Below are positions 3,229-17,507 of a DNA stretch of 25,720 nt, one piece after another. A program made the translations under genes and the position numbers. Origin of the DNA: a virus. The DNA lies in the IMG/VR virus record IMGVR_UViG_3300007734_000516, positions 1-25,720 of that record. One strand, written 5' to 3'. The notes beneath the pieces are model-generated. The model searched no databases. It saw nothing but the letters and a program-made list of their open reading frames with translations, and was not told where the DNA came from. Each line of letters starts with the position of its first letter. The first letter of the stretch is position 1.

Positions 3229-3272
3229 ATCAGTTCTGCTAATGAGTCCTATTAAACAATCAAGAGAAAACT

Positions 3273-4910: not shown

Positions 4911-4915
4911 ATTGG

Positions 4916-5095
4916 TTATTTTTTACGGGCAGCGGCGATTGCTTTGATAATTTGCGTCCAAGGAATGATGCCTTGCCCATCAATGTTCAGCCCGTCCAAT
5001 TCAGCGGTAATGGACAGACGCGCATACTCTCTGGCCCCCTCTATCTCTGGCTCGACCAGCCATTCCTGAACAAAACGCTGAGTAATCATGCCCAT
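4916..5095 (-). CDS. Small protein upstream of terminase (59 aa)
   Basis: ATG at 5095 (a second in-frame ATG lies at 5089) to TAA at 4916-4918. The protein starts MGMITQRFVQEWLVE and ends IKAIAAARKK. It is helical, with no recognised domain, and ends 5 bases before the terminase start codon, which argues for co-translation. Its position is where a small terminase often sits, but it is far too short for a normal TerS; an accessory or vestigial fragment is possible. An in-frame stop just upstream (5099-5101) fixes the 5' limit. It faces the plus-strand operon across a divergent gap. Confidence 0.6.
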   Translation of the reverse strand: MGMITQRFVQEWLVEPEIEGAREYARLSITAELDGLNIDGQGIIPWTQIIKAIAAARKK

Positions 5096-5225
5096 AAGCT
5101 AGGCATCTGCTGATTTGTTTCAAGAATTGATCACCTGGCAACACGATCTATTAGACGAGCTAATAGTTAACCTGAAATCGCACTACCAATTTGTCATTTT
5201 TGGTGAAAATGGCATAACGAATCTG

Positions 5226-6104
5226 ATGAATATCAAACGTAATATCCTGATCGCAACCCCCTTAAAAGGGGATGTTCCCAAAAACTATTTTGTGACCAGC
5301 CTGCAACTGGCTGCACAGAAACTGTCCGACATCAAACTGGATTGGATTTTATTGGATGGCCCAGCCGTGCAAATGGCTAGAAATCAACTGGCGGCGTATG
5401 CCATTGAGAAGAATTTCCATGAATTGATCTTCTGGGACAAGGATGTGGTCGCTCAAACGGACGGGCAAAACACTACGGTTTCTGCAATCATGCGTTTGAT
5501 CTCTCATGACGTCGATATGGTGTGCGGAATTTACGGAACCCGCTCAATGGACACACATTGGCACGTTCAACCGCTGCCTGGAGAGCAACCGGGCCTGGAT
5601 GGTCTGCAAAAGGTCAAGCGTTGCTGCATTGGCTTCTCCAAGATCAAGACTTCCGTCTTTAAGAAGCTGATTGTCGATAACCCAGACCGCCTTGCCATCA
5701 TGGCTGACCCCAATCACGAACCCAAGGTCATTCCTGAGCTTTTCCCAATGGGCATCCAAGGCAAAAACACCCCTGAAAGTCGTTTGTCCGAGGTCAAGGC
5801 TATCTTAGGTGACCAAACCCTTCAGGATCACACCAAACTGGCCCGCATCGACCGCGAGCTAGGTTTAACCTACGACGAAAAGAACTTCTATGCCGGCGAA
5901 GACTATTGGTTCTGCGATCTGGTTCGAGCCAGCGGCTTTGAGGTTTACCTGGATACAAACCTGATGATGAGCCACACCGGATCAGCCAACTTCCCCATCT
6001 CAACGGAGGAGCTGGTCAAAGCTTTGAACGAACCTTGGCGCAAAGACGAGATCATTGCCATCAAGAAGAAGTTTGCTGAAGCCAAAAACCCTGCTCCCAA
6101 ATGA
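5226..6104 (+). CDS. GT-A type glycosyltransferase-like protein
   Basis: A 292-aa protein from the ATG at 5226. It has the order of a family 2-like GT-A nucleotide-sugar transferase: start strand NILIATPLKGDV, a DKD metal-binding motif at residues 71-73 (LIFWDKDVVA), GIYGTRS near 101, a GEDYWFC acidic motif at 224-230 (probable catalytic base region), and MMSHTGS at 248-253. The frame is open 37 codons further upstream to a TTG at 5115, but the family's first strand begins right after the 5226 ATG, so I prefer that start; the gap would then be a divergent promoter region. Phage enzymes of this kind can modify DNA bases or virion or host surface glycans; the acceptor is not visible. The next gene overlaps its stop by 4 bases (ATGA). 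Confidence 0.75.
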   Translation: MNIKRNILIATPLKGDVPKNYFVTSLQLAAQKLSDIKLDWILLDGPAVQMARNQLAAYAIEKNFHELIFWDKDVVAQTDGQNTTVSAIMRLISHDVDMVCGIYGTRSMDTHWHVQPLPGEQPGLDGLQKVKRCCIGFSKIKTSVFKKLIVDNPDRLAIMADPNHEPKVIPELFPMGIQGKNTPESRLSEVKAILGDQTLQDHTKLARIDRELGLTYDEKNFYAGEDYWFCDLVRASGFEVYLDTNLMMSHTGSANFPISTEELVKALNEPWRKDEIIAIKKKFAEAKNPAPK

Positions 6105-6541
6105 CAAACTTGTACAGACACTACAACACAACGGGAATTTTGCTTTATGTTGGAATTTCTATTTCAGCAATAAAAAGACTTTCTGAACACGCAGTCCAGT
6201 CTCGATGGTTTAATCAAATTGCTGTGATCAAAATTGAAAAATTTGAAACAAGAGAAGAGGCTCAATTAGCAGAAAAACAAGCGATTGAACAAGAAAGCCC
6301 CTTATTTAACATTAAGATGGTTCCTCGAAAAGTAGACGTTCCCTTTGTTAAATCCAATAGGCTGCTAACATTCCGAGAAGTTAATGCAATGATTGGTTCA
6401 ATTTGTAAAACTGCGCATCCCGCTTTAAATTTAGCCAGAAAGGGCTTGATTGAATCTGTTAGAATTAATGAACGAACAATACGATTCAACGAGGCAAGCG
6501 TACACAAATTTGTTGCTGGTAAAATTGGAGTATTGGCTTAA
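6101..6541 (+). CDS. GIY-YIG nuclease fused to excisionase-type HTH
   Basis: A 146-aa protein overlapping the preceding stop by ATGA. Residues 4-70 form a GIY-YIG nuclease: LYRHYN and LLYVGIS stand for the two name-giving strands, followed by a basic helix (AIKRLSEH), the metal-binding glutamate E58 in EEAQLAEKQAI, and N70. Residues about 85-140 (LLTFREVNAMIGS ... RTIRFNEASVHKFV) match the pattern of helix-turn-helix domains of the excisionase/HTH_17 type. GIY-YIG proteins with a DNA-binding tail are often homing endonucleases or cargo nucleases. The gene is clearly more AT-rich than its neighbours, which fits recent transfer. Catalysis is inferred from motifs; the usual R is displaced. Confidence 0.82.
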   Translation: MTNLYRHYNTTGILLYVGISISAIKRLSEHAVQSRWFNQIAVIKIEKFETREEAQLAEKQAIEQESPLFNIKMVPRKVDVPFVKSNRLLTFREVNAMIGSICKTAHPALNLARKGLIESVRINERTIRFNEASVHKFVAGKIGVLA

Positions 6542-6546
6542 CTCAA

Positions 6547-6777
6547 ATGAACTTAGAGGTAGACCTTTTTGGCAATAAGCTGGAATCCCCAGCACCCCCG
6601 CCCCCGCCTGTCCCTGTTGCCAAGAAGCGTTTCCGCCCACCGGCACTGCCGTCCTACTTCCCTACCGATGCGGCCTCGCCTCCCGTCAATCTGCTTTCCA
6701 CTACCCGCCGCTACCGCGTAGTAAAGCAGTCCCCCTGCCTCACCTACATCTACCACGATGACGACGATTCCTTCTAG
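6547..6777 (+). CDS. Small Pro-rich protein
   Basis: A 76-aa protein starting MNLEVDLFGNKLES, with a polyproline run at residues 16-22 and an acidic end (HDDDDSF). It begins 5 bases after the GIY-YIG stop on the same strand, so it probably belongs to the same operon. No family recognised. It converges with, and overlaps by 4 bases, the stop of the minus-strand gene. The N-terminal DLFGN pattern is seen in small phage proteins, but that is a weak hint. Confidence is moderate because the sequence is short and biased. Confidence 0.5.
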   Translation: MNLEVDLFGNKLESPAPPPPPVPVAKKRFRPPALPSYFPTDAASPPVNLLSTTRRYRVVKQSPCLTYIYHDDDDSF

Positions 6778-7469
6778 CCCTCGTATGGGCCAGGACTGGT
6801 ATCCCCCATCAGACTCTTCTTCAAAGCCATCTTCTGTTGCTTAATCGTCTCCAGCTTCGCTTCCGCCCCTTCCTCCGCTACTACTTCCTCTGCTAGCTGT
6901 ACGCTACACCCGCTGCTACCCCCGCCCAAGCTAGCATCCCCAATATCCATCTTCCCGTTCAGCTTCGCGATGATCTCTTCCTTCGACATCGCCCCAAAGT
7001 TGTTCACCTGGATATTCACGTTGCTCCCAGCCGTCGCGCTGGCCCCTGCCAACGCCCGCTTCTTGTCAATCGTCACTGCCATCGCAAAGGGCAGCGTATG
7101 CATAGGCATATCGTCAATATCCCTAATCATCCGGTCTATCACCAGATCCGTCAACCGATCCAGCTTCCCCATCAACCGCTCGTTAAACTTTTCCACACTC
7201 ATACCAACAATCCTCTGCATGATTCGTTTGTCATCATTTGTCATATAATCCAGCACCGGGCTTTGCCTCAAGCCAATTCCATTACCTTTCAACGTAGCCG
7301 TTGCCACATCCCTAACCAACCGCTTCACCCCATACGTCCTCTTCCTCGTCGTCTCCTTCTTCCACCGATTCGGCTTCCTTGCCTTCTTCGGCTCCGCCCC
7401 AACCGCCCCCGCCAACCCACCAGCCACCCCAGCCGACCCACCACTTCCACCCACCTCCTGCTCGCTCAT
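6774..7469 (-). CDS. DNA-packaging/terminase-small-like candidate (231 aa)
   Basis: A 231-aa protein with three parts: a Gly/Ala-rich N-terminus; a basic patch (KKARKPNRWKKETTRKR, residues 28-44); and a long helical region holding a TLPFAMAVTIDKKRAL stretch. That helical segment resembles regions found in proteins that phage annotation often calls small terminase subunits or HTH packaging proteins. It overlaps the upstream gene by 4 bases (ATGA at 7466-7469), so the two are one operon. On the minus strand it lies upstream of TerL, separated by the inserted plus-strand operon. A small terminase is an inference from position, basic patch and pattern; a generic structural or DNA-binding protein is the alternative. 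Codon third positions match this frame better than the overlapping plus-strand frames. Confidence 0.55.
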   Translation of the reverse strand: MSEQEVGGSGGSAGVAGGLAGAVGAEPKKARKPNRWKKETTRKRTYGVKRLVRDVATATLKGNGIGLRQSPVLDYMTNDDKRIMQRIVGMSVEKFNERLMGKLDRLTDLVIDRMIRDIDDMPMHTLPFAMAVTIDKKRALAGASATAGSNVNIQVNNFGAMSKEEIIAKLNGKMDIGDASLGGGSSGCSVQLAEEVVAEEGAEAKLETIKQQKMALKKSLMGDTSPGPYEG

Positions 7470-8554
7470 ACATTCACCTTCTCCTTTATCCCATCCACCT
7501 TATTCATCCAGGCTTCCGCCTCCTTCCTCATCTTATCCATAAATCCCTCCCCTCCATCAACCTCCCTTCTTACAACTTCTTCAGCCTCCTCCTTCCCCTC
7601 AATCGCACCAGCCTCCACATCCTCCTCTTTCACCTTCTCCTCTTCCCTTAAACTCCCTCCAATAAATCCCACAGGCTTTACTGTCATATCTCCAACCCCC
7701 GGCTGCTTCTCCAATTCCACCCTCCCCACAATCTCATATTCCGCATCCCGCCCACACCCGCTCACCCACACCCGCTTCACCTTCACCACCTCCCCATTAA
7801 ACAAGTTGTACCCACTCACCGCACACTTCGCCCACTCCTCCGTCCCTCCCACTATCCTCACCCGCGCGTACTCCTTGTTCCGACAGATCCCCCCTATCAC
7901 CCCTTCCCCAACCTCCACCCACCCACTCACATCCCCACTCACTTTAATCAATTTTTCAGGAGCCTCGCTTATAGCTTGACTAAAACCACTTTTCCCCTCC
8001 AGCTCCCCCCTAGGGGAGCGAAATTGTAAGCTTCGCTTTGTTTCTTTTAGCGTACTCCCTACTCCGCTCTCGCACCCCAAAGAGCCACTACTAGCTTCTA
8101 CAAGCTTCACGCCTCCACCACTGGCTTCATCTTGCTTCAGTTCAACTGACTGCAAAATTTCTACTCCTACAGCGGATCTATTGTAATTGTCAGTCAGGGC
8201 CAGGGCTTTGACCCCCCCCTCCCCTACGGGGGCAGACGCGGAGCGCGGGGGGGGGAGCGGGGCGGATGAAGGAACGGCCAGGACGGCCGGAACAACCGAC
8301 GCGGATGAAGGAACGACCGATTGTAGTGCTTGACCTGATACGGTTGGCAGTATCGGCAAAGTTGATACAACGAGAGACAATGGAAGCCGGTGCAAGCGAC
8401 AAAATCGGATTGCATCACTTTGCCGGCCGACACCGCATAGGTACGAAATCCAAGCTTTCTTGCCCCTCAAGCGCTGCCGAGTGGGGCTTTCGCGCCTTGG
8501 CTGAGGCGGTGGACGAATCGGCGAAGCAAGGGAAGGCGCAGGGGATGAGGGCAT
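7466..8554 (-). CDS. Hypothetical protein with beta-rich core and acidic tail; 5' part doubtful
   Basis: Residues from about 190 on look like a genuine protein: a beta-rich core (WVEVGEGVIGG, YARVRIVGGTEEWAKC, EYEIVGRVELEKQ) then a Glu/Lys helical C-terminus (about 300-362). The stop overlaps the next start by 4 bases, which supports translation at this end. The first about 110 residues are less convincing: Pro/Arg/Ser-rich, rich in alternative frames (a Cys-rich minus frame at 8224-8433 and a plus-strand frame ending at 8556 look at least as coding-like), and broken by a run of nine G (8247-8255) and eight C (8212-8219). The true start may lie anywhere between about 8150 and 8554, or the N-terminus may need a frameshift. 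No family recognised. Confidence 0.5.
   Translation of the reverse strand: MPSSPAPSLASPIRPPPQPRRESPTRQRLRGKKAWISYLCGVGRQSDAIRFCRLHRLPLSLVVSTLPILPTVSGQALQSVVPSSASVVPAVLAVPSSAPLPPPRSASAPVGEGGVKALALTDNYNRSAVGVEILQSVELKQDEASGGGVKLVEASSGSLGCESGVGSTLKETKRSLQFRSPRGELEGKSGFSQAISEAPEKLIKVSGDVSGWVEVGEGVIGGICRNKEYARVRIVGGTEEWAKCAVSGYNLFNGEVVKVKRVWVSGCGRDAEYEIVGRVELEKQPGVGDMTVKPVGFIGGSLREEEKVKEEDVEAGAIEGKEEAEEVVRREVDGGEGFMDKMRKEAEAWMNKVDGIKEKVNV
8212..8320 (-). repeat. Homopolymer and 13-codon duplication tract in a coding region
   Basis: An 8-base C run (8212-8219), a short hairpin (CCCCTACGGGG), a 9-base G run (8247-8255), and two copies of GCGGATGAAGGAACG at 8262-8276 and 8301-8315 (39-bp spacing, in frame, 13 codons). 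Such runs slip easily in replication, in sequencing and in translation. It lies inside the uncertain 5' half of the minus-strand gene at 7466-8554. Confidence 0.7.
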
Positions 8555-8682
8555 AAGTGGAACTGATTTGAGGCATCAATGAATCTACTGACAAGGCAAG
8601 GCAAGTGGGAAAAGATTGCGGGAAGTTGTGATCTACTCACTTAATGAGCGCAGGTGTCCGCTTTCGGGCGCCAAAAAACAGT

Positions 8683-8706
8683 CAGCAAATCAGCAAATCA
8701 GCAAAT
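8683..8706 (+). repeat. CAGCAAAT x3 leader before the 65-aa gene
   Basis: Three perfect tandem copies of the 8-mer CAGCAAAT ending 2 bases before the ATG at 8709. No Shine-Dalgarno motif is present. Related CAGC(N)AAA units precede the starts at 10412, 10803, 11660 and 16323. Confidence 0.75.
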
Positions 8707-8708
8707 AT

Positions 8709-8906
8709 ATGAGATACGAAACAACGGAAAGTTGGACGAATGCGCAGGCTCGAAAAGTCGCGCGTTGGGACCGCGAGCAAGCTGCGCACGATGCGATGGG
8801 GACGAACAACCGGGAATTCCCGATTGAACAGATGAAAGCTAGCCCCCGTTTGCCAGGCGAAGACCTGATTGCCTACGGCTCCCGGCTCAAAGGGGGTGCA
8901 AAGTGA
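8709..8906 (+). CDS. Small basic/charged phage protein (65 aa)
   Basis: ATG at 8709 after the CAGCAAAT leader; starts MRYETTESWTNAQARKVARW and ends RLKGGAK. Charged and helical, no recognised domain. An in-frame upstream start near 8616 exists, but the leader repeat lies inside that extension, so 8709 is preferred. It overlaps the next start (GTG at 8903) by 4 bases. It is the first gene of the rightward early arm. Confidence 0.7.
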   Translation: MRYETTESWTNAQARKVARWDREQAAHDAMGTNNREFPIEQMKASPRLPGEDLIAYGSRLKGGAK

Positions 8907-9046
8907 TCACGCTCAAACAAGCGATTAAAATTAGGGAGCTTGCAAATGCCCCGGCCGATGTTCGGAAAGCTTTTCTCTCGCGAGAAAAACGACGGGTGAG
9001 ATGGGTGAGAAAACACGCTTATCTTTTTAAGGGGGGTGCGAAATGA
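8903..9046 (+). CDS. Small basic protein with GTG start (47 aa)
   Basis: GTG at 8903 overlapping the previous stop (GTGA), stop at 9044-9046 overlapping the next ATG (ATGA). The protein begins MITLKQAIKIRELANAPADV, is strongly basic (RREKRRVRW-type region around 27-37), and ends FKGGAK. Nearly the same bases, AAGGGGGTGCAAAGTGATCAC-like, occur at both of its ends, so both it and the next gene start MIT and both it and the previous gene end KGGAK. The double overlap and a strong SD-like AAGGGGG 6-7 bases before the start support real translation. Confidence 0.72.
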   Translation: MITLKQAIKIRELANAPADVRKAFLSREKRRVRWVRKHAYLFKGGAK

Positions 9047-9675
9047 TCACAATTTCATCACTAATGGAAAGTGTCGGCGGCCTTTCCGCTCCTTCTAAAA
9101 TGCCTTGTTTTGGCTATTCAATACCTGCGGCACGGTGCAAGATCGGGCGGAAAATGCGAAAAGTGGCGGGTAGCATTTGCAGCATATGCTATGCCTTGAA
9201 AGGCCGGTATGCTTTCCCTAATGTCTCGAATGCCTTGGAACGGAGATTTCAGAAGATTAGCGGCAAATCATGGGTTCGCGACATGATTGCCGTAATTTCT
9301 CGCGTTGAAGTCAGCGGGTATTTCCGCTGGCACGACGCCGGGGATTTGCAAAGCGTGGCGCATCTAAAACGCATCGTGGCAATTTGCCAAGGCACACCAC
9401 AAATCAGACATTGGCTTCCAACGCGCGAGTATACCACCGTCAGGAAATTTTTAGAGCAAGGTGGCGTGATTCCCCCGAATCTCACGATTCGCCTTAGCGC
9501 TCTAATGATTGATGGACCAGCGCCGGAAAGCCTCGCAAAGCGTCTTGGCGTGCAAGTTTCGGGCGCGAGTGCATCCGCTTATTCGTGTCCTGCACCGTCG
9601 CAAGGGAATGTCTGCGGCGATTGTCGGAAATGCTGGAGCAAAGACACTTTTAACGTGTCCTACAAGGTCCACTGA
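9043..9675 (+). CDS. GP88-family phage protein
   Basis: A 210-aa protein matching the pattern of the 'gene product 88' family known from mycobacteriophages and many other phages: a CxxC in SICSICYA (C46, C49), YFRWHDAGDLQS (residues 93-104), LPTREY (125-130), PPNLTIRLSA (144-153), a C182, and a terminal CGDCRKCW cluster (C191, C194, C197). The fixed Cys, His and Asp residues suggest a metal or Fe-S centre, but the function of the family is not known to me. The start overlaps the previous stop (ATGA) and is preceded by AAGGGGGG as Shine-Dalgarno. A strong terminator follows 20 bases after the stop, ending this three-gene operon. Confidence 0.85.
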   Translation: MITISSLMESVGGLSAPSKMPCFGYSIPAARCKIGRKMRKVAGSICSICYALKGRYAFPNVSNALERRFQKISGKSWVRDMIAVISRVEVSGYFRWHDAGDLQSVAHLKRIVAICQGTPQIRHWLPTREYTTVRKFLEQGGVIPPNLTIRLSALMIDGPAPESLAKRLGVQVSGASASAYSCPAPSQGNVCGDCRKCWSKDTFNVSYKVH

Positions 9676-9695
9676 AATTTCCCTTCGCTCCCATC

Positions 9696-9726
9696 GCCCT
9701 TCCCCTAATCCGGGAAGGGCTTTTTT
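9696..9726 (+). terminator. Rho-independent terminator after GP88 gene
   Basis: Perfect 9-bp stem GCCCTTCCC (9696-9704) / GGGAAGGGC (9712-9720), 7-base loop, then TTTTTT at 9721-9726. Confidence 0.93.
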
Positions 9727-9751
9727 ATGTCCATTTTTTTTCGGGTGCGAT

Positions 9752-9966
9752 GGCCAGGGCGCCAGGGCGAGGCAAGGCGAGGCAAGGCGAGGTCGGGCGA
9801 GGCGGGGCGAGGTCGGGCGAGGCGGGGCGAGGTCGGGCGAGGCGAGGCGAGGCAAGGGCAGGGCGAGGCGAGGCAGGGCAGGGCGAGGCGAGGCGAGGCG
9901 AGGCGGGGCGAGGCGGGGCGAGGTCGGGCGTGGATGGGCGAGGCGAGGCGAGGCAAGGGCGAGATC
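9752..9966 (+). repeat. G-rich GGCGAGG array
   Basis: About 215 bases built from imperfect units such as GGGCGAGGC, GGGCGAGGTC and GGCAAGGC. G runs of two to four recur on the plus strand, which fits G-quadruplex-forming DNA or RNA. Long ORFs here exist only because the period is a multiple of three or lacks stops; they are low-complexity and not credible genes. It is the first part of a 736-bp gene-free stretch (9676-10411). Confidence 0.85.
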
Positions 9967-10012
9967 GGGCCGGCCAGCGCGGCGCGGCCCAGTTGGCCGG
10001 CGCGGCCTCACC

Positions 10013-10307
10013 GCTTGGCTTGACCGGCTTGACCCAGCCGCTTGACCGCTTGATCGGCTTGACCCGTTTGATCGGCTTGATCCGCTTGATCGGCTTGATC
10101 GGCTTGATCGGCTTTGATCGGCTTGATCGGCTTTGATCGGCTTGATCGGCTTTGATCGGCTTGATCGGCTTGATCGGCTTGATCGGCTTGATCGGCTTGA
10201 TCGGCTTGATCGGCTTGATCGGCTTTGATCGGCTTTGATCGGCTTGATCGGCTTTGATCGGCTTGATCGGCTTGATCGGCTTGATCGGGTCGACCGAGCT
10301 TGACCGC
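10013..10307 (+). repeat. 9-bp tandem array, unit CTTGATCGG
   Basis: About 25 copies of TTGATC in a 9-bp period, with occasional 10-bp units carrying an extra T and edge units of TTGACC. Each unit has a GATC. The unit looks like the -35 box of the promoter immediately to its right (TTGACC at 10328). There are no spacers, so this is a minisatellite, not a CRISPR array. A degenerate copy of the same layout lies at 11335-11545. Confidence 0.92.
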
Positions 10308-10327
10308 AAATAAATAATAATAGACGC

Positions 10328-10356
10328 TTGACCCAACTCACCTAGTGTGCATTCTC
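10328..10356 (+). promoter_or_regulatory. Promoter P1, TTGACC-17-ATTCTC
   Basis: -35 TTGACC (10328-10333), 17-bp spacer, -10-like ATTCTC (10351-10356), preceded by an AT-rich UP-like stretch (10308-10321). The same -35, spacer length and -10 occur at 11568-11596, and a close form at 14673-14701. It drives the ORF at 10412. Confidence 0.7.
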
Positions 10357-10366
10357 CCTCTCATCA

Positions 10367-10411
10367 GCTCCCATTCCGGGAGCATCAACTCAGCGAAAAC
10401 TTAGCGAAATT
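10367..10411 (+). promoter_or_regulatory. 5' leader: hairpin plus CAGCGAAA units
   Basis: A perfect 6-bp hairpin GCTCCC-attcc-GGGAGC (10367-10383) followed by CAGCGAAAAC and TAGCGAAAT (10391-10410) right before the ATG at 10412. No Shine-Dalgarno motif. Confidence 0.6.
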
Positions 10412-10699
10412 ATGAACAACATCTCCTCTTCCTCCGCCTTGGTGTTCTGGACTGCGCCAAAATCATTAGCCAAGTTGGCCGACAGCGGCAGCAGCCTCCT
10501 TAAGCCGGGCAGAAACCTTTCATCTTGGCACATAACCAAGATCGCGCCCTCCCTTTTCAGGGCTGGCCATTTTTCTCTGACAGGGCATGGAGATGCACTG
10601 GACGCTCAAATTAACAATATCCCAACCGGGCGCACGCCCGGACGGGCACTCCGGAATTTCCGCCGAAAGCTGCGGAAATCGCCGATCGCTTTCGCATGA
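10412..10699 (+). CDS. Orphan small basic protein (95 aa), single-gene unit
   Basis: ATG at 10412 downstream of promoter P1 and the CAGCGAAA leader; the stop is 21 bases before a strong terminator. It therefore sits alone in its own transcription unit. The protein starts MNNISSSSALVFWTAPKSL, is Ser-rich, then ends basic (RNFRRKLRKSPIAFA). No family recognised. The reading frame is not strongly distinguished by codon use and an opposing ORF (10520-10780) exists, so the region could instead carry a structured RNA. The signals at both ends favour a real transcript. Confidence 0.45.
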   Translation: MNNISSSSALVFWTAPKSLAKLADSGSSLLKPGRNLSSWHITKIAPSLFRAGHFSLTGHGDALDAQINNIPTGRTPGRALRNFRRKLRKSPIAFA

Positions 10700-10720
10700 A
10701 AGCCACCCTCTGAAAAACCA

Positions 10721-10752
10721 CCCCGCTACCTCCTCGGAGGCGCGGGGTTTTT
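10721..10752 (+). terminator. Rho-independent terminator
   Basis: Stem CCCCGC / GCGGGG with inner CCTCC / GGAGG (10721-10747), followed by TTTTT at 10748-10752. Confidence 0.9.
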
Positions 10753-10786
10753 CTGGTGCCAGAGCATTTCGCCGAGGCATTTAACT

Positions 10787-10802
10787 CAGCTAAAACAGCA
10801 TT
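10787..10802 (+). promoter_or_regulatory. CAGCTAAAA leader before 78-aa gene
   Basis: CAGCTAAAACAGCATT directly before the ATG at 10803, without a Shine-Dalgarno motif. No clear TTGACC promoter lies between the terminator ending at 10752 and this start; two GAGCATTT/GAGGCATTT elements at 10762-10782 recall the -10 side of P1/P2. Confidence 0.55.
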
Positions 10803-11039
10803 ATGACAACATCACACTTAATCAAACCCGCCATCAGTCGGAGCATCAGTCATGACGAGATCGTTTTGCTTTTGGTGGACGACGCAAGACAAGCCCTTGA
10901 GTGTATCGACAATGACGAAAACGTGACGGAGCTGGATTACACCGATACCGACAACGGCATTGACTGTTGGGGAAAGCGGTTCGGCGAAGACTTTCGCTTG
11001 TTGATCCGCTCCACCGGTCTTGTCGGAGGTGCCGCATGA
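10803..11039 (+). CDS. Small acidic phage protein (78 aa)
   Basis: A 78-aa acidic protein: MTTSHLIKPAISRSISHDEI, then a helical segment and an Asp-rich beta-like part (ELDYTDTDNGIDCWGKRFGEDFRLLIR). No family recognised. Its stop overlaps the start of the next gene (ATGA at 11036). It is expressed behind the CAGCTAAAA leader with no Shine-Dalgarno. Confidence 0.7.
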   Translation: MTTSHLIKPAISRSISHDEIVLLLVDDARQALECIDNDENVTELDYTDTDNGIDCWGKRFGEDFRLLIRSTGLVGGAA

Positions 11040-11284
11040 GTGCCACCACCTACACCGAAATCTCCCTAGAAGCCGCCGAGGCGATCTTCGGTGGCAAGCT
11101 GCCCGAATACCTCTGCAAAGAAAACAATTACGGCACCGCCGCCTTTCACTTCACCGCTTTCAAGGAAATCGTCGAGGCTGACGTGGCTCGCATCGCTGCT
11201 CAAAAAGCCGCAAAGCTCGCCGCTCGTGCTGCCCGCGCCGCTGTGCCAGCCCGCACATTCCGCCTAGTCTCAATCGGAGATTAA
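11036..11284 (+). CDS. Small Ala-rich phage protein (82 aa)
   Basis: ATG at 11036 in an ATGA overlap with the 78-aa gene. The protein starts MSATTYTEISLEAAEAIFGG and has a long Ala/Lys/Arg helix (residues 53-72) before a short end (TFRLVSIGD). No family recognised. A terminator begins 7 bases after the stop, so this closes a two-gene unit. A longer upstream start exists in frame but would run deep into the previous gene. Confidence 0.7.
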   Translation: MSATTYTEISLEAAEAIFGGKLPEYLCKENNYGTAAFHFTAFKEIVEADVARIAAQKAAKLAARAARAAVPARTFRLVSIGD

Positions 11285-11290
11285 GAATCT

Positions 11291-11319
11291 CCCACTCCTT
11301 CACCGGAGTGGGCTTTTTT
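11291..11319 (+). terminator. Rho-independent terminator
   Basis: Perfect 8-bp stem CCCACTCC (11291-11298) / GGAGTGGG (11305-11312), 6-base loop, then C and TTTTTT to 11319. Confidence 0.93.
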
Positions 11320-11334
11320 GTGCCGGTTTGCCGG

Positions 11335-11545
11335 CATCGATTGGCCGAGGCAGGGCGATGGGCAGGATCGGGGCAGGATCAGGGCGCAAATGGGCAGGAA
11401 ACGGCACAAGCGGGGCCAACAGGGGCGACGCTCGACCGCTTGACCGCTTGGCTTGACCGCTTGGCTTGAGCCAGCCGCACCGCTTGACCGCTTGATCCGC
11501 TCGACCGGCCCACTGCTTGATCGGCTTGACCGCTTAACGCCTTAA
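11335..11545 (+). repeat. Second, degenerate G-rich plus TTGACCGC array
   Basis: It follows the same order as 9752-10307: first a G-rich part with GGGCAGGATC/GGGGCAGG units (about 11340-11430), then CTTGACCGC, CTTGGCTTGACCGC and CTTGATCGG units (about 11430-11545), then an AAATAAAATAAG stretch. It fills the gene-free gap 11285-11659 with the promoter P2. Confidence 0.8.
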
Positions 11546-11567
11546 ATAAAATAAGACGTTATGGTGC

Positions 11568-11596
11568 TTGACCTATCTCATCAACTGAGCATTCTC
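11568..11596 (+). promoter_or_regulatory. Promoter P2, TTGACC-17-ATTCTC
   Basis: -35 TTGACC (11568-11573), 17-bp spacer, ATTCTC (11591-11596). It matches P1 at both boxes and spacing, and the two spacers share the CTCA core. Internally TGACCTATCTC and TGAGCATTCTC form a direct repeat 17 bases apart. Confidence 0.75.
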
Positions 11597-11630
11597 ACTC
11601 GTATCGACCCGCTTTTGGGCCGTAACAAAC

Positions 11631-11659
11631 CAGCTAAAAACAGCTAAAAAACAGCAAAT
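11631..11659 (+). repeat. CAGCTAAAAA x2 plus CAGCAAAT leader
   Basis: Two perfect CAGCTAAAAA units (11631-11650) followed by ACAGCAAAT directly before the ATG at 11660. No Shine-Dalgarno motif. Confidence 0.75.
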
Positions 11660-11941
11660 ATGAATACATACTGCCTCGATCGTTACTATCGGATCACGAT
11701 CACGAATTTGATCCTTAAATCTCAACCGGAGGGCCATCCAGTCGAGCTGGCACTTGACTCCATGGATTTCTCGGCTCCCACCTACGAGGACATCATTACC
11801 GAGATCCGCGGTCAGGTGGACGCTGACACGGTGCAAGTCGTTGACCGCTTGGATTGGGATGGCAGGGGAACCGTGACGGTCACCGGATTCGGCTTGGGCG
11901 AGGATGGTGAGGAGTTTTGCGTCGTCATCCGCTGCTACTAA
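11660..11941 (+). CDS. Small phage protein (93 aa)
   Basis: A 93-aa protein with an alternating beta pattern (YYRITITNLILKS, GTVTVTGFGLG, EEFCVVIRCY) and an acidic middle. No family recognised. It is the first gene behind promoter P2 and the CAGC leader, and the next gene starts 4 bases after its stop. The first residues include MNTYCLDRYYRITITN. Reading on the plus strand is favoured over a same-length minus ORF by its position behind the promoter. Confidence 0.7.
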   Translation: MNTYCLDRYYRITITNLILKSQPEGHPVELALDSMDFSAPTYEDIITEIRGQVDADTVQVVDRLDWDGRGTVTVTGFGLGEDGEEFCVVIRCY

Positions 11942-11945
11942 TACC

Positions 11946-12200
11946 ATGACGCTCCCAATTATTCACAGCAACGGAACCTCGGCCAAAGAGTTGACCGAGG
12001 GTTATCATGCCGCCCGGCTGGCGATGGAACGGGCTATCACGGCCCTCGCCAAGGTCGAATTTAATGCGAGAGATTATTACGTTCGTCAGGGTGCTTGGCA
12101 AGCGGCGCAGCTTGAGCGCGAGGAAATGTTTAACGACCTTCGCCGCATCACCAATGACCTGATGAAACACGAATGGCACTGTTCAAATTCGATCAAATAA
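11946..12200 (+). CDS. Small helical phage protein (84 aa)
   Basis: ATG at 11946, 84 aa, starting MTLPIIHSNGTSAKELTEGY. Almost entirely helical and charged from residue 13 on, suggesting a coiled-coil or helical bundle (AARLAMERAITALAKVEF). No family recognised. It lies 4 bases after one gene and 11 before the methyltransferase ATG, so all are probably one transcript from P2. An in-frame start at 11904 is possible but would overlap the previous gene by 38 bases. Confidence 0.7.
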   Translation: MTLPIIHSNGTSAKELTEGYHAARLAMERAITALAKVEFNARDYYVRQGAWQAAQLEREEMFNDLRRITNDLMKHEWHCSNSIK

Positions 12201-12211
12201 CATAACATGAC

Positions 12212-13411
12212 ATGGATACTACCGAAACAACTACACACCTTGGCCTGTGCGCTGGGTACGGAGGCATTGAGCTTGGACTCAAACGAGTCATCCCAAATCT
12301 GCGCTCAGTCGCTCTTTGTGAGATCGAAGCCTTCGCAGTTGCGAATCTGGTCAGCAAAATGGAGGCGGGACTCATGGAGCCAGCACCTATTTGGACGGAT
12401 CTTAAGACCTTCCCTTGGGAAAGCTTTCGAGACAAAGTGGACATCCTCTCTGGCGGTTATCCGTGCCAACCATTTAGTGCAGCCGGCAAGCGACTTGGAG
12501 GTGAAGACCCCAGGCATCTCTGGCCCTACATCGCAGATGGAATTCGACTTCTTCGACCCAAGCTCTGTTTCTTTGAAAACGTCGAAGGACACATTAGTCT
12601 CGGACTCCGAGAAGTCGTTGGAGAACTGGAACAAATTGGTTATTCAACGGCGTGGGGAATATTCTCAGCGGCTGAAGTTGGCGCACCGCACCAGAGAAAG
12701 CGGGTCTTCATCATGGCCTACCGTGACCGCGAACGAGGACAGTTATCGAATTGGTGGAGAGAGTCAGCAGAGCAAATGCCTTTCAGCGATGGCGAGACGA
12801 GGGGAAATGTCTGGCCTAGTCGCCCCGGTCAACCCCAGCACGCATGGGAAGGATGCGAATTGGCCGACACCGATACAAGGGGACAGTCACTTGGCATCAA
12901 CGCCAGAAGCGGCTCAACGCAGGATTGCAGAGGGCAAAGTTACACTCTCAAGACTAGTGGAGTCTGGCCTTCCCGCCCCGGTCAACCCCAGTACGGATGG
13001 GAGCCACCAAGAGTCGTGGGCAACGCCGAGAGCAGGCAAGACAACGGACGAGAACCCGGAGACTTGGGCGGCGAGGCAAGCCAAGGGGGATGTGGCACCT
13101 GTGCCGCTGACGGCGCAAGTGAAGGCGTGGGCGACACCGACAATAGGCGGCGAGGAAGGAGCGGAGACGAGACTAGCGAGAGGCAGGGACATGGGTCTGC
13201 ACGCGCAAGTGGGAGCGATGAAAAACTCAGCCAAACTGAACAGTCGCTGGGTGGAAACCCTGATGGGTCTGCCGGTGGGATGGACTATGCCGAGCTGTGC
13301 GTCACCTGTGACAACCGTACTGACGAACTCCGCCTCCTCGGCAACGGAGTCGTCCCTGCCACCGCAACCCTAGCCTTCCGCACCCTTCTTCAAGAAATTA
13401 TTTCCGCTTAA
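12212..13411 (+). CDS. DNA (cytosine-5) methyltransferase
   Basis: A 399-aa C5-methyltransferase. Motif I LCAGYGGIELG (residues 12-22, SAM binding), motif IV GYPCQPFSAAG (82-92, catalytic C85), motif VI ENVEG (122-126), motif VIII QRKRVFI (161-167), and a C-terminal motif X LLGNGVVPATATLAFRTL (375-391). Between motifs VIII and X the sequence is Gly/Asp/Ser/Arg-rich, with a repeated VWPSRPGQPQ element at about 200 and 250. It would methylate phage DNA, probably against host restriction; no cognate endonuclease gene is nearby. The target site cannot be read from the sequence. A second conserved protein is encoded in another frame of the same DNA (12537-13373). The start is 11 bases after the previous stop, without a clear Shine-Dalgarno. 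Confidence 0.95.
   Translation: MDTTETTTHLGLCAGYGGIELGLKRVIPNLRSVALCEIEAFAVANLVSKMEAGLMEPAPIWTDLKTFPWESFRDKVDILSGGYPCQPFSAAGKRLGGEDPRHLWPYIADGIRLLRPKLCFFENVEGHISLGLREVVGELEQIGYSTAWGIFSAAEVGAPHQRKRVFIMAYRDRERGQLSNWWRESAEQMPFSDGETRGNVWPSRPGQPQHAWEGCELADTDTRGQSLGINARSGSTQDCRGQSYTLKTSGVWPSRPGQPQYGWEPPRVVGNAESRQDNGREPGDLGGEASQGGCGTCAADGASEGVGDTDNRRRGRSGDETSERQGHGSARASGSDEKLSQTEQSLGGNPDGSAGGMDYAELCVTCDNRTDELRLLGNGVVPATATLAFRTLLQEIISA
12537..13373 (+). CDS. Overlapping out-of-frame gene nested in the methyltransferase
   Basis: A 278-aa reading frame from ATG 12537, +1 relative to the methyltransferase and wholly inside it. The protein has order and motifs I recognise from a family of phage proteins of unknown function that travel with cytosine methyltransferases: MEFDFF, SLKTSKDT, SDSEKSLENWN, RRGEYSQRLKLAHRTRESGS, repeated SWPTVTAN / NWPTP / SWATPRAG / AWATPTIGG blocks, then LNSRWVETLMGLPVGWT and a Ser/Pro-rich end. 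Random out-of-frame readings do not give such ordered motifs, so dual coding is likely. An in-frame start at 12207 would add 110 residues without family features, so 12537 is preferred. No Shine-Dalgarno motif is seen. Function is not known; an accessory to the methyltransferase is inference. Confidence 0.68.
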   Translation: MEFDFFDPSSVSLKTSKDTLVSDSEKSLENWNKLVIQRRGEYSQRLKLAHRTRESGSSSWPTVTANEDSYRIGGESQQSKCLSAMARRGEMSGLVAPVNPSTHGKDANWPTPIQGDSHLASTPEAAQRRIAEGKVTLSRLVESGLPAPVNPSTDGSHQESWATPRAGKTTDENPETWAARQAKGDVAPVPLTAQVKAWATPTIGGEEGAETRLARGRDMGLHAQVGAMKNSAKLNSRWVETLMGLPVGWTMPSCASPVTTVLTNSASSATESSLPPQP

Positions 13412-13438
13412 AATAAATCATCAAATCATCATCTTCTT

Positions 13439-13693
13439 ATGCCTTCACCAATAACTTTTCAAATCCTTATCCGCCGTAAGCGCCGCGCTCTCGGTTTAAC
13501 CCAGGCCCAGCTTGCAGCTATGCTCGACATCTCCCACAGGACTTTAGACTCTTGGGAGCGGTCAGAAATAAACCACAAGCCGCACATCCTGACCCAGGAG
13601 GCCGTCTGGGCGCGGATAGCTGCCTTCGATGCCCCTCCCGTCCCGCTTGACCCGCTTGATCCAGCTCTCTCAGCAGCTCCAGCAACGCCCTAA
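13439..13693 (+). CDS. XRE-family (Cro/CI-type) DNA-binding protein
   Basis: An 84-aa protein with a helix-turn-helix of the Cro/C1 type at about residues 7-48 (LIRRKRRALGLTQAQLAAML, ISHRTLDSWERSE). Short proteins like this are typical phage regulators, acting on operators in the early region. The C-terminal 20 residues are unstructured Pro-rich (VPLDPLDPALSAAP), encoded by a CGCTTGACCCGCTTGATCC stretch resembling the intergenic minisatellite. It lies 27 bases after the methyltransferase stop. The targets are not known; the TTGACC/TGACC promoter repeats are candidates. Confidence 0.85.
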   Translation: MPSPITFQILIRRKRRALGLTQAQLAAMLDISHRTLDSWERSEINHKPHILTQEAVWARIAAFDAPPVPLDPLDPALSAAPATP

Positions 13694-13718
13694 AAAATAA
13701 CTCCTTCCCCTTCTTTTT

Positions 13719-13940
13719 ATGTCCTACGAAAACAGCAACTGCCCCTGTGGTGGTAAGAAACTAACCAACACGATGCTTTGCCCTACTTGTGAAGTTTCAT
13801 TCTCCACTCATCCAGACCGCTTTGCGATGTGGGATCGCAAACTACCGTTTGCTGCCCGCCGTCAGGCTGCAATCAGGGTTCTGGCCATGTCTCGCAAACG
13901 GGCCGCTCAAGGATCTTCTCTTCCTCTGTCTTTCTCCTAA
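13719..13940 (+). CDS. Small zinc-ribbon-like protein (73 aa)
   Basis: A 73-aa protein starting MSYENSNCPCGGKKLTNTML. Four cysteines, C8, C10, C21 and C24, make a CxC-N10-CxxC pair suited to zinc binding. The C-terminal half is a basic helical region (FAARRQAAIRVLAMSRKRAA). No further family call. It lies 25 bases after the XRE gene in the same direction. Confidence 0.65.
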   Translation: MSYENSNCPCGGKKLTNTMLCPTCEVSFSTHPDRFAMWDRKLPFAARRQAAIRVLAMSRKRAAQGSSLPLSFS

Positions 13941-13978
13941 CAGCTGCGGTCAGCTCTTCAAAACTCACCGAAAACAAC

Positions 13979-14173
13979 ATGGCTATCACCGACCTCCACA
14001 ATGATCCGAACCACATCGTGCGCTCATTCGTGATCCCGAATGCTCCGACAACAGAAGGCATGAGCTACCAGACCGCCGATGGTCGAGTTTGGCGCGAAAC
14101 ATGGAACACCAACTGCGGCACCGCTCAAACTCTCGGACGTGTGCGCGATAATCGCGTCGAGCCTCTTCGCTGA
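13979..14173 (+). CDS. Small phage protein (64 aa)
   Basis: ATG at 13979 gives MAITDLHNDPNHIVRSFVIP and a beta-like second half (GRVWRETWNTNCGTAQTLGR). No family recognised. Weak CAGC-type leader units (CAGCTGCGGTCAGC, ACCGAAAACAAC) precede it. Longer in-frame starts would overlap the zinc-ribbon gene out of frame and look non-coding. It is the last gene before a 534-bp gene-free stretch. Confidence 0.6.
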   Translation: MAITDLHNDPNHIVRSFVIPNAPTTEGMSYQTADGRVWRETWNTNCGTAQTLGRVRDNRVEPLR

Positions 14174-14672
14174 ACAGCTCCAGTTGGTAAAGCTGGCTTG
14201 GTTAGGCTTGGTTAATCGCGTTTTGGTTCGGGTAACCGTTGGTTGCATAGCTCACCCCCTTGCGAGGGATGAGCTACTGGCTAACGCGCCTTGGACGGGG
14301 TGTCTGGCTCGCATTGAGGAGCCTGCTCGGTAGTGCCATCGCACACAGGACATCCTCGGCTCACTAGGTTTAAACCTTCACTACTTATGCCAGCGGGTGA
14401 TCGTTCTGGCTGCCGATTCTAATGATCAGAGGCTGATTCCTAACCCACCTTTCGGTGCGGCGGCTTGTGGGCCAATCTCAGCTTGAGGTCTTTGCAGCGT
14501 TGCGGGCTGCTCGCGCATCAGGGCATAAAAAAGCCCGCGTGGTAGAAGGCACGTCGGGCAACTGACTCCTAAAATGTTATGCTCGTCGCGGCTTCTACCC
14601 CGTTTGACGAGGGAGAACCTGAGCGAAGCACAACCCTCCGCAACTTATTTTTAAGAAACTTTGCGAAATAGT
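14174..14672. other. Gene-free stretch with several hairpins, candidate structured RNA or control region
   Basis: No convincing ORF on either strand. It contains GGCTTGGTTAGGCTTGGTT units near 14190 resembling the TTG-type arrays, a GGTT-cgggt-AACC hairpin (about 14226), a 7-bp hairpin TAGCTCA / TGAGCTA with inner CCC/GGG pairing (14248-14276), a CCCACC...GTGGG structure near 14443-14470, and a GCGGGCT/AGCCCGC pair near 14500-14538. I looked for a tRNA cloverleaf and found no canonical T-arm. A minus-strand terminator lies inside it, and promoter P3 ends it. Confidence 0.5.
14527..14559 (-). terminator. Minus-strand terminator
   Basis: Read on the minus strand: GCCCGaCGTG stem (14559-14550), 8-base loop, CACGCGGGC (14541-14533), then TTTTTT (14532-14527). 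A 9-bp stem with one bulge. No clear minus-strand gene ends here, so it may stop antisense transcription or end a non-coding RNA. Confidence 0.7.
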
Positions 14673-14701
14673 TTGACCTATCTCCAACAAGTGACCTATC
14701 T
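14673..14701 (+). promoter_or_regulatory. Promoter P3, TTGACC-17-CTATCT, repeat-containing
   Basis: -35 TTGACC (14673-14678), 17-bp spacer, CTATCT at 14696-14701. TGACCTATCTCC occurs twice, 18 bases apart (14674-14685 and 14692-14703). The ATG at 14708 is only 7 bases past the -10, so the transcript would be leaderless or nearly so. Confidence 0.6.
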
Positions 14702-14707
14702 CCTCTC

Positions 14708-14929
14708 ATGCCCACTTTGGGCACGTTCAGCAACCTCATCAAACCAGCTATGATTATCGATCCGCCAGAAATCGCTCTGACACCAGAGCAGATAGAGTCA
14801 GACATCCAGGCCGAGCAGGCTTGGTACGAAGCCCGTCGCCTCACCGAGGGTGACGTTGACGCCTTGGCCGAGCAAGACGCGGAAGGCCGCAACTATCGCC
14901 GGGGAATCAAGGGAGGCCGTCATGATTAA
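14708..14929 (+). CDS. Small acidic phage protein (73 aa), possibly leaderless
   Basis: ATG at 14708, 73 aa, starting MPTLGTFSNLIKPAMIIDPP, then an acidic helical region (ALTPEQIESDIQAEQAWYEARRLTE-type, residues 23-48) and a basic end (GRNYRRGIKGGRHD). No family recognised. It follows promoter P3 so closely that the mRNA may lack a leader. It overlaps the next start by 8 bases. An opposing minus ORF (14569-14892) is rejected because this gene opens the clear operon to 16976. Confidence 0.72.
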   Translation: MPTLGTFSNLIKPAMIIDPPEIALTPEQIESDIQAEQAWYEARRLTEGDVDALAEQDAEGRNYRRGIKGGRHD

Positions 14930-15116
14930 AAAAGCCTATCGTAAAAACAAGGGCGTCCTCGCCGCCTTGTACGCGGCCCAAGCGTGGAGAGGGGCAGCGG
15001 TCATTGCTGGTTGTTACGAGATCAACAACAAGCAGGAGCTGCTTTCGTTTTACAGATCCTCCATGCGTAATTGGGCAAAGTACGCCATCAAACGTCAAAG
15101 AATCAAAACGTCATGA
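14922..15116 (+). CDS. Tandem-duplicated small protein, copy A (64 aa)
   Basis: ATG at 14922 gives MIKKAYRKNKGVLAALYAAQ and shares its whole plan with the next gene: MIKKA/MIKEA, AAQAWR, HYEI/CYEIN, K-L-x-FYRSSMR-WAK. Basic, helical, no known domain. The start overlaps the previous stop by 8 bases and its own stop overlaps the next ATG (ATGA). No function can be assigned; small nucleic-acid-binding proteins are one possibility, given the charge. Confidence 0.72.
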   Translation: MIKKAYRKNKGVLAALYAAQAWRGAAVIAGCYEINNKQELLSFYRSSMRNWAKYAIKRQRIKTS

Positions 15117-15310
15117 TTAAAGAAGCCCTGTGGAAGAACGCTGACGTTGCAGCCAGTCTGCGTGCGGCTCAAGCTTGGCGGCAAGCGATTAACGTCTCGC
15201 AGCACTACGAAATCAAAGACGGCAAGAAGTTAATGGACTTCTACAAATCATCGATGCGGAGCTGGGCGAAACACGCTCTTCTCCTTCAAAAACTTTCCCC
15301 CAAGGAATAA
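15113..15310 (+). CDS. Tandem-duplicated small protein, copy B (65 aa)
   Basis: ATG at 15113 in ATGA overlap; begins MIKEALWKNADVAASLRAAQ. Residues AAQAWR, HYEIKDGKKLMDFYKSSMRS and WAKHAL line up with copy A over its full length without large gaps. Both are basic. The product is unknown, but it sits directly before Gp157, so the pair probably belongs to the DNA-replication module. Confidence 0.72.
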   Translation: MIKEALWKNADVAASLRAAQAWRQAINVSQHYEIKDGKKLMDFYKSSMRSWAKHALLLQKLSPKE

Positions 15311-15314
15311 CAAA

Positions 15315-15830
15315 ATGAAACTATATCAAATCCCATCGCAGATCGAAGAGATCTTCAGCTTCATCGACCAAGTACTCGCAGACGAGAGTCTGGCCGAAAA
15401 CGAGAAACAGGGCAAACTTGCCACCCTTAAGGATCAGTTAAATCTTGTCCAGATGGAGCGCAGGCAGAAATGCCTGTGGCTCTCACGCCAGTTCTTGAAC
15501 CTCCAGGCCGAGCGCATGGCGGTCAACGAACAACGCCAGAAGTTCAGCGAGCGCGTCGCCCGGCTGGACAAGCAGACCGAGTCCATCAAGAACTTCCTTG
15601 GCGTCATTCTCGACGCCGGCGAGAAGATGGCTGACGAGGTGACGCAGATCTCTTGGAGGAAGTCCGAGGGAGTCATTCTGCGGTGCGATCCTGAGTCCCT
15701 TCCTGCCCGTTTTACCCGCATCAAGGTCGAAGCCAGTCTCACCTCCCTCAAAGAGGCTTTAAAGGCTGGAGATCGCGAAGCGGCCCAAGTCGCCGTCCTT
15801 GAGCAGCGTCAAACCATTGCCATCAAATGA
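15315..15830 (+). CDS. Gp157-family protein
   Basis: A 171-aa protein with the plan of the siphovirus Gp157 family: an N-terminal helix with LxxLxxQLxL pattern (residues 10-45), a long charged coiled-coil middle (residues 45-110: RQFLNLQAERMAVNEQRQKF, ERVARLDKQTESIKNFL), then a beta-rich end with a W-R-K-S-E pattern (ISWRKSEGVILRC) and a closing helix. The family lies in replication/recombination clusters of phages beside SSB or recombinases; its exact role is unproven. It has a Shine-Dalgarno AAGGAA 8 bases before the ATG, rare in this arm. The stop overlaps the next start (ATGA). Confidence 0.85.
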   Translation: MKLYQIPSQIEEIFSFIDQVLADESLAENEKQGKLATLKDQLNLVQMERRQKCLWLSRQFLNLQAERMAVNEQRQKFSERVARLDKQTESIKNFLGVILDAGEKMADEVTQISWRKSEGVILRCDPESLPARFTRIKVEASLTSLKEALKAGDREAAQVAVLEQRQTIAIK

Positions 15831-16312
15831 AAACCAAGTCTGATTTATCAGAATATAGACAGCGAATAAACGACAACGTCCGAGGTTTGTTTTGCGACTG
15901 GGTTGATGAAGTGGTCGAGCATTCCATAAAACAAGTGGAAGATCTAATAATTGATGCGAAAAAAACTTTTGAGAGAGTCAAAGAACTTGAGGCAATTATT
16001 GCTCATAGAGAAGCCGAGGACAATTACGCCAAGGTTCAAAAAGAAGCCGCGGAAGCCTATGCCAACAGACCTTGGAAAGAACCTTCAGTGCCAATTTCTT
16101 CTTTAACATTATCGACCAGGATTCAGACTCTTTTTGATCAAGAAGGCTTTCAAAGCATTGGCGATATAATCGATAAGACCGAATATGATTTGTCCGCTAT
16201 TCGTAATTTTGGAAAGGTTTCCTTAGCAATTTTAAAAAATGAACTTGCTAAACATGGCTACGCTCTTCGCAGCGCAGAAGACTCTCATTTGTCAGCAAAC
16301 GTCAGCAAATAA
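15827..16312 (+). CDS. RNA polymerase alpha-CTD-like protein with coiled coil
   Basis: A 161-aa protein overlapping Gp157 (ATGA). Residues 1-80 are helical and charged (coiled coil). Residues 88-148 match the C-terminal domain of the RNA polymerase alpha subunit: SLTLSTRIQTLFDQEGF, SIGDIIDKTEYDL, IRNFGKVSLAIL, AKHGYAL. Arg98 corresponds to E. coli R265; N127, G129, K130 and S132 to N294, G296, K297 and S299, residues of the DNA/UP-element contact surface. N268, K298 and E302 are not kept. This is the helix-hairpin-helix fold that also contacts activators. The gene is more AT-rich than its neighbours. Roles could be mimicry or capture of host transcription, or simply DNA binding; which one is inference. 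Its 3' end is built from CAGCAAA units used as leader of the next gene. Confidence 0.8.
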   Translation: MKTKSDLSEYRQRINDNVRGLFCDWVDEVVEHSIKQVEDLIIDAKKTFERVKELEAIIAHREAEDNYAKVQKEAAEAYANRPWKEPSVPISSLTLSTRIQTLFDQEGFQSIGDIIDKTEYDLSAIRNFGKVSLAILKNELAKHGYALRSAEDSHLSANVSK

Positions 16313-16322
16313 AGTAAATTAT
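16293..16322 (+). promoter_or_regulatory. CAGCAAA leader overlapping the previous gene end
   Basis: CAGCAAACGT and CAGCAAATAA (16293-16312) encode the end of the previous protein and precede the SD-less ATG at 16323. Confidence 0.6.
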
Positions 16323-16976
16323 ATGCCCATCCTAATCCCCGCTTCTGGCGGAAAAAACGACCCGATTCCGTCGGGGACTCATCAAGCAACGTGCTACGGC
16401 GTAGTCGCCGTTGGGACGCTCCCCAACGAGCTTTACGCTCCCAAGCCCAAGGTCATTATATTCTTCGAGCTGCCGCATGAGCGGGCAGATTTTGGAGAGG
16501 CTAAGAACGTCCCCCGCACCATCAGCAAACGGTACACGCTCTCCTTCCACAAGAAGAGCGGCCTCCGGGCTGATATTCAAAGCTGGAAGGGAAAACAGAT
16601 GTCAGATGCCGAACTGACCACGTTCGACTTGGTTCAATTGATCGGCACGAACTGCCTCATCAACATCCAGCACGTCATCAAAGGCGACAAGACCTACGGG
16701 AACATTGCGGCCATCAGTCCGCTTGCAAAGGGCATGGCTAAGGAAGCTATGATTAGCCCAAAGTTGTACTTTAACCTGGTCGAGGCAATCGACGTGGCTC
16801 GCAAAACTAGGGAGCTGGTCGATTTCGGGATTATGCCTGACTGGTTGGCGAACACGATCAAAAAGGCCAAGGAGTACACGGACTTCGTTGGCGGATCTGG
16901 CAAGCCAGAAGCGACTGATGACGAGAAAGCCAATGTCGCCAGCGTTGATATCGATTCCGATTCAGTCCCGTTCTGA
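16323..16976 (+). CDS. SSB-like phage replication protein with SSB-type tail
   Basis: A 217-aa protein of a widespread phage family found next to replication genes: MPILIPASGGKNDPIPSGTH, CYGVVAVGTLP, FFELPHERADF, SKRYTLSFHKKSGLR, LIGTNCLINIQHV, GDKTYGNIAAISPLAKGM. The core is beta-rich, which fits an OB-type ssDNA-binding fold. The last residues are acidic and end SDSVPF, like the DDDIPF tip by which bacterial SSB recruits partner enzymes; Phe is terminal. A longer start at 16239 is open but overlaps the previous gene and lacks family features, so I use 16323, preceded by the CAGCAAA leader. ssDNA binding is inferred; SSB family membership is not proven. Confidence 0.75.
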   Translation: MPILIPASGGKNDPIPSGTHQATCYGVVAVGTLPNELYAPKPKVIIFFELPHERADFGEAKNVPRTISKRYTLSFHKKSGLRADIQSWKGKQMSDAELTTFDLVQLIGTNCLINIQHVIKGDKTYGNIAAISPLAKGMAKEAMISPKLYFNLVEAIDVARKTRELVDFGIMPDWLANTIKKAKEYTDFVGGSGKPEATDDEKANVASVDIDSDSVPF

Positions 16977-17424: not shown

Positions 17425-17507
17425 GCGCATTATTCTGCCTCATTATTTCAGTCTTGGCCTTCTGCGTAGGTTATATGATGGGCTACCTATCGAGAGATCT
17501 AAAATGA
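17421..17507 (+). CDS. 28-aa single-pass membrane microprotein
   Basis: ATG at 17421 and stop TGA 17505-17507, overlapping both neighbours by ATGA. Sequence begins MSALFCLIISVLAFCVG and is followed by YMMGYLSRDLK, with one hydrophobic helix (about residues 3-22) and a basic end. The two exact overlaps in a chain of coupled genes support real translation; it is too short for standard gene callers. Function is unknown; small membrane peptides of phages can alter host membrane or act in exclusion, which is only a suggestion. Confidence 0.6.
   Translation: MSALFCLIISVLAFCVGYMMGYLSRDLK

Follow-up and report, generated by a model that had tools for sequence, protein, structure and literature searches.

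Oriented tandem arrays of a short site ahead of early operons in a phage family

Two blocks ahead of early operons

The window analysed here is the whole 25,720-base stretch of an IMG/VR phage record, in which a terminase and a portal-like gene lie on the minus strand and the early genes on the plus strand. Two blocks within it (block 1, 9696–10411; block 2, 11291–11660) each precede an early operon and have an order of parts in common: a terminator, a G-rich part, repeated units, an A-rich stretch, a promoter-like element, a hairpin, a leader and an ATG. Both blocks are also present in L186 (G010), the closest relative having an early region. The individual features, all on the plus strand, are as follows.

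9696–9720, block 1: intrinsic terminator, with a 9-bp stem plus T run, belonging to the operon upstream
9766–9963, block 1: G-rich tandem array (GGCGA/20-mer); a similar array lies at L186 4570–4765
10020–10305, block 1: TTGAYC array of about 30 units of 9–10 nt (CTTGATCGG)
10308–10323, block 1: A-rich stretch AAATAAATAATAATAG, identical in L186
10326–10360, block 1: promoter-like element GCTTGACC-N16-CATTCTC, its promoter function being presumed
10367–10383, block 1: small hairpin GCTCCCATTCCGGGAGC of unexceptional fold (z = -0.5), ahead of the first ATG (10412)
11291–11312, block 2: intrinsic terminator
11346–11427, block 2: G-rich stretch with a weak 11-nt period (GGGCAGGATCA)
11429–11535, block 2: CTTGACCG-type array of about 12 degenerate units (CTTGACCG/CTTGATCGG)
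11544–11555, block 2: A-rich stretch AAATAAAATAAG within a TAACG...CGTTA near-palindrome; GATAACGTCTTAA/TTAACACGTTATC in L186
11566–11600, block 2: promoter-like element GCTTGACCTATCTCATCAACTGAGCATTCTC, identical in L186
11605–11622, block 2: small hairpin CGACCCGCTTTTGGGCCG, then leader to the ATG at 11660
14673–14715: a third TTGACCTATCTC-type element, accompanied by a hairpin (ATGCCCACTTTGGGCA region) but not by an array

A first-pass annotation had described block 2 as repeating the parts found at 9696–10356 in the same order. These are indeed present, with degenerate units, the span that it gave (11335–11545) covering the array part only. The GCTTGACC of the promoter-like element is the same sequence as that in the arrays (TTGACC in both). 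Isolated core sites elsewhere in the window number 24 and 29 by strand, with no clear strand excess. A sigma-70 scan of 9000–16500 returned five promoter-like sites, compared with 3.4 ± 1.9 in shuffles, and did not pick the TTGACC-N16-CATTCT element, which on its sequence we treat as a putative, unproven promoter. Open frames cross block 1 on both strands, but the other records yielded no homologue, and we rejected the arrays as coding sequence.

In this phage family, A-rich leaders composed of AACTCAGCTAAAA or AACCAGTAAA units often precede start codons without an evident Shine-Dalgarno sequence; examples lie at 10384–10411, 11623–11659 and 10784–10802 in the window, at G001 23520–23557 and at L089 5971–6003. 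The near-palindrome around the block 2 A-rich stretch, TAACG(T)...(A)CGTTA, occupies 11534–11560 in the window and 5989–6019 in L186, and GTAACG...CGTTAC inverted repeats are found directly ahead of the array in G004/G005 (L089 6929–6972, G005 12330–12375). Both are possible candidates for operators of a second regulator. Elsewhere, a 60-nt tandem repeat at 17827–18027 lies inside a predicted alanine-rich protein (17504–18082, AAARAAAWDAA-type).

Likeness between the blocks and among relatives

The blocks were compared by local alignment against 300 dinucleotide shuffles. The unit arrays score 88, compared with 18.5 ± 3.7 in the shuffles (0/300, z = 18.7), and the promoter-like elements, which form a 35-nt gap-free match, score 35 against 15.4 ± 2.3 (0/300, z = 8.5). 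For the terminators the values are 21 and 12.9 ± 2.2 (2/300, z = 3.7). The G-rich segments, at 31 against 24.1 ± 4.7 (36/300, z = 1.5), are not significantly alike beyond composition. Alignment of the blocks, proposed in the annotation as a check for likeness beyond composition, thus comes out in favour of the unit arrays and promoter-like elements and against the G-rich parts.

When whole units were kept and their order alone was shuffled, the observed score of the two unit arrays was reached in 44 of 1000 cases, and four other pairings of window and L186 blocks gave non-significant values of between 107 and 465 of 1000. Because unit-order shuffles nearly match the observed alignment, copying of the whole block is not demonstrated. 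What the blocks have in common is the unit and the promoter-like element, and for these the description "modular, copied control block" is supported in its first adjective and not shown to hold in its second.

A terminase search of IMG/VR yielded 161 relatives, 80 of which were kept. Related phages had been suggested as the place to look for such blocks, and tandem non-coding arrays with the core do lie ahead of one or two early operons in 10 of the 13 records examined. The first array precedes the first early operon and the second, where present, usually precedes the operon of a methyltransferase or HTH gene, that of G004 being located at an operon end. In L186 the flanks and promoter-like elements are nearly identical to those of the window, whereas the arrays have turned over (CTTGACCGAG in L186, CTTGATCGG in the window). 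Across the phages both unit and period vary (9, 13 or 14–15 nt): 13-mers AATTTGACCCAGC are found in G003, G004, G005 and L222, 15-mers GATTTGATCCTGGGC in G008, and 14–15-mers ATTTTACCCC in G006, G007 and G012, which carry TTTTACCC in place of TTGACC. G009, G001 and G002 have degenerate versions only, as read by eye and unscored. The A-rich stretch is absent from G004 and G008. In L186, a 45-nt insertion with a 20-nt-arm hairpin (5944–5991), absent from the window, lies between the block 2 unit array and the A-rich stretch.

In the slot ahead of the TTGACC array, the window has GGCGA repeats, G008 has GCGGGGGAAC and L222 has CCCGTGCTTGG; G003–G005 show no clear array there. The annotation had counted the G-rich units among the copied parts; their likeness between the blocks is at the level of composition and the relatives have unrelated repeats or none in that position. 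Since the content of the slot differs or is lacking between phages, we read it as unconstrained, and the G-rich arrays are most likely length-variable slippage.

Wider searches brought few matches. The terminase is only 23–32% identical to those of annotated phages, the closest being Phage C75C1 (host not given), and 3000–10700 of the window has no DNA match in INPHARED. An exact 27-mer of the unit occurs in IMG/VR only in the window's own record and in bacterial genomes at 17 scattered places, taken as unrelated. Three successive copies of the degenerate pattern ATTTGACC match 19 times in IMG/VR, family members being L211 and the new L222 only, and several of the others resemble coding pentapeptide-type repeats; the motif by itself is therefore not diagnostic. 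A terminase-based host search of about 790 sampled genomes of the order Burkholderiales and of Planctomycetota, groups selected for their availability, gave nothing useful. Apparently non-coding arrays with TTTGACC were also seen outside the family, in L214, L228 and L230 (TTCATTTGACC adjoining AAGATCCGAATCGGCC repeats) and in L221 and L229 (GATTTGACCTC 11-mers); all were picked by the search pattern and are possibly unrelated.

Core conservation and possible function of the arrays

To compare core with filler, each array was aligned to its repeated consensus unit with equal column weights. For 13 arrays taken together, matches number 813 of 911 (89%) in the six core columns and 629 of 820 (77%) in the other columns (p = 2e-12), a signal that stems from the 13–15-mer arrays; by themselves, the arrays of the window and L186 show no significant advantage of the core over the other columns. 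Between the 13-mer arrays at the corresponding position in G004, G005, L222 and G003, AATTTGACC is 0.81–0.95 identical and the 4-nt filler 0.43–0.66. A count by register gives p <= 2e-4 for every ordered pair, but its alignment could match up units that are not orthologous and the pairs are non-independent, so that these p-values are indicative. Clusters of at least three cores number 19 on the early-gene strand and 0 on the opposite strand, for a motif that includes TTTTACCC variants and was defined after the arrays had been seen; they occur in 10 of 11 records, G009 being the exception. Better conservation of the core than of the filler fits selection on repeated short sites. The annotation's view that the arrays are not chance low complexity is supported for the TTGACC arrays and the promoter-like element, which recur at corresponding operon boundaries in relatives, on the early-gene strand and with the core conserved beyond the filler.

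A neutral explanation is rather unlikely. The arrays could be a by-product of slippage, functionless simple repeats that grow and shrink between terminator and promoter, perhaps seeded by a short promoter motif: the window array has a 102-nt higher-order period with a 93% match, which points to recent expansion, the phages differ from one another in unit and period, as they do in the unrelated repeats of the slot ahead, and the arrays of blocks 1 and 2 are no more collinear than common units give. A neutral repeat should, however, decay evenly across its unit; older arrays do not, their core outlasting the filler, which favours an array of oriented sites. Slippage is likewise at odds with the exclusive strand of the core clusters, and with the way arrays recur at the same operon boundaries even where the array DNA of the phages can no longer be aligned. 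We consider it unlikely that the arrays serve as landing or decoy sites at which -35-like (TTGAC) units weakly bind the host housekeeping sigma factor and so raise or retain polymerase locally, although the core is similar to TTGACA, the canonical -35 hexamer, and identical to the -35-like portion of the element downstream, and a phage-coded binder common to all was not found when the HTH gene was looked at. Matching -10 elements do not recur in the arrays, and TTTTACCC, TTTTGCCC and TTGATC variants depart from -35. The precedent would be the E. coli promoter islands, which are horizontally acquired, AT-rich chromosomal regions with many -35-like elements crowded near true starts (PMC3661553, PMC7054387). 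The many -35-like elements are a shared trait, whereas the arrays here are built of ordered tandem units that contain GC and lack a repeated -10, and the promoter scan, at shuffle level, did not reveal the overlapping complete -35 and -10 signals of an island.

At least as unlikely is a replication origin, in which the units would serve an initiator as iterons and unwinding would take place in the A-rich stretch. As in theta-type origins, a short site repeated directly in tandem does adjoin an A-rich stretch in the early region, but several genomes have two arrays, each ahead of an operon; no GC-skew turn was found at the arrays and no initiator gene was recognised. Nor are the repeats of constant length as in iterons, being 9 or 10 nt in the window and degenerate in block 2, and the adjacency itself fails in L186, where the hairpin insertion splits the block 2 array from its A-rich stretch, and in G004 and G008, which have no such stretch. 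It is very improbable that the units act in the transcript, be it on translation, on antitermination or on the stability of the 5' leader. They do reach the start codon, after a hairpin, in G006/G007/G012 and in block 2 of G008; in the window, L186 and G003–G005, however, the promoter-like element or hairpin comes downstream of the arrays, and the fold of the array RNA is not unusually good (z = -1.35). A conserved early protein (18647–19237) was considered as a replication initiator and rejected, having neither a Pfam nor a PHROG match.

The reading that we prefer, with a probability of slightly under one half, is that the arrays are oriented sites through which a DNA-binding factor acts at the boundaries of early operons. 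Recognition sites of some 8–9 bp (TTGAYC/AATTYGACC or a subgroup version) would stand in oriented rows between the terminator and the early operon start, to be occupied by a sequence-specific factor coded by phage or host. Occupancy would tune transcription of the early operon downstream, and we infer both this binding and an effect by way of repression, activation or the stopping of read-through. The promoter-like element would itself hold one copy of the site. More tentatively, and with rather less likelihood, this may be a probably lytic phage family with an undescribed form of early-operon control, in which tandem oriented arrays of a fast-changing site are re-amplified independently in each phage, and one factor, either coded by the host or a phage factor that went unrecognised, reads both them and the promoter. 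A literature search, mostly without subscription papers, did not find such arrays described.

By behaviour, the nearest known system is the stoperators of Cluster A mycobacteriophages, in which we do not claim membership; iteron origins and promoter islands fit less well. Stoperators, the repressor sites of L5 and Bxb1, are short asymmetric 13-mers, many per genome and mostly in one orientation to transcription, that occur in intergenic and promoter regions and whose motif drifts between related phages (PMC9283540, PMC6550527). In the arrays, too, short asymmetric sites occur many times over and point one way relative to transcription. They differ in being tandemly packed where one or two operons start, rather than scattered genome-wide, and whilst a known immunity repressor binds the stoperators of those temperate phages, no repressor was recognised here and ten records, several of them incomplete, yielded no tyrosine integrase. 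A lysogeny repressor is thus not obviously needed.

The one common DNA-binding gene encodes an XRE-type HTH protein (window 13439–13693). It was rejected as a universal binder, being present in 6 of 10 records and absent from G003, G004 and G005, where the 13-mer arrays are clearest. Array spacing (9, 13 or 15 nt) shows no helical phasing across the family. If the arrays are regulatory, repeat expansion renews the number and sequence of the sites and leaves a short core in place, the matching of regulator to site during rapid change could be tested directly, and array length ahead of an early operon could be used as a reporter dial.

A conserved element near 14190

The annotation had also suspected a trace of the same architecture near 14190. 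What lies there is a single 10-nt duplication (GGCTTGGTTA twice, 14195–14214) without the TTGAYC core, present as one copy only in L186. A conserved non-coding element of the early region has its 5' edge here, and the supposed trace led in this way to the following finding.

Window 14188–14637, plus strand: predicted structured RNA
L186 8447–8844 and L089 10002–10461: the same element, found also in G003, G005, G008, G001, G009, G006, L209 and L027

A nucleotide profile of the element matches each of the ten further genomes studied in detail, or fragments of them, with E values of 1e-32 to 1e-154, and Rfam 15 holds no credible match to it. Across 11 sequences and 59 predicted pairs, pairing holds in 95.5% of cells. 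Covariation is seen as 41 cells changed on both sides, compared with 12.4 ± 2.8 in shuffles (0/500), a strong control, and with at most 8 when partners were slid, a comparison biased towards the structure by its prediction from the same alignment. From its sequence, the element has the appearance of a structured phage RNA, about 250–400 nt long, that is as yet undescribed. In its 3' part, modules have been swapped between phages.
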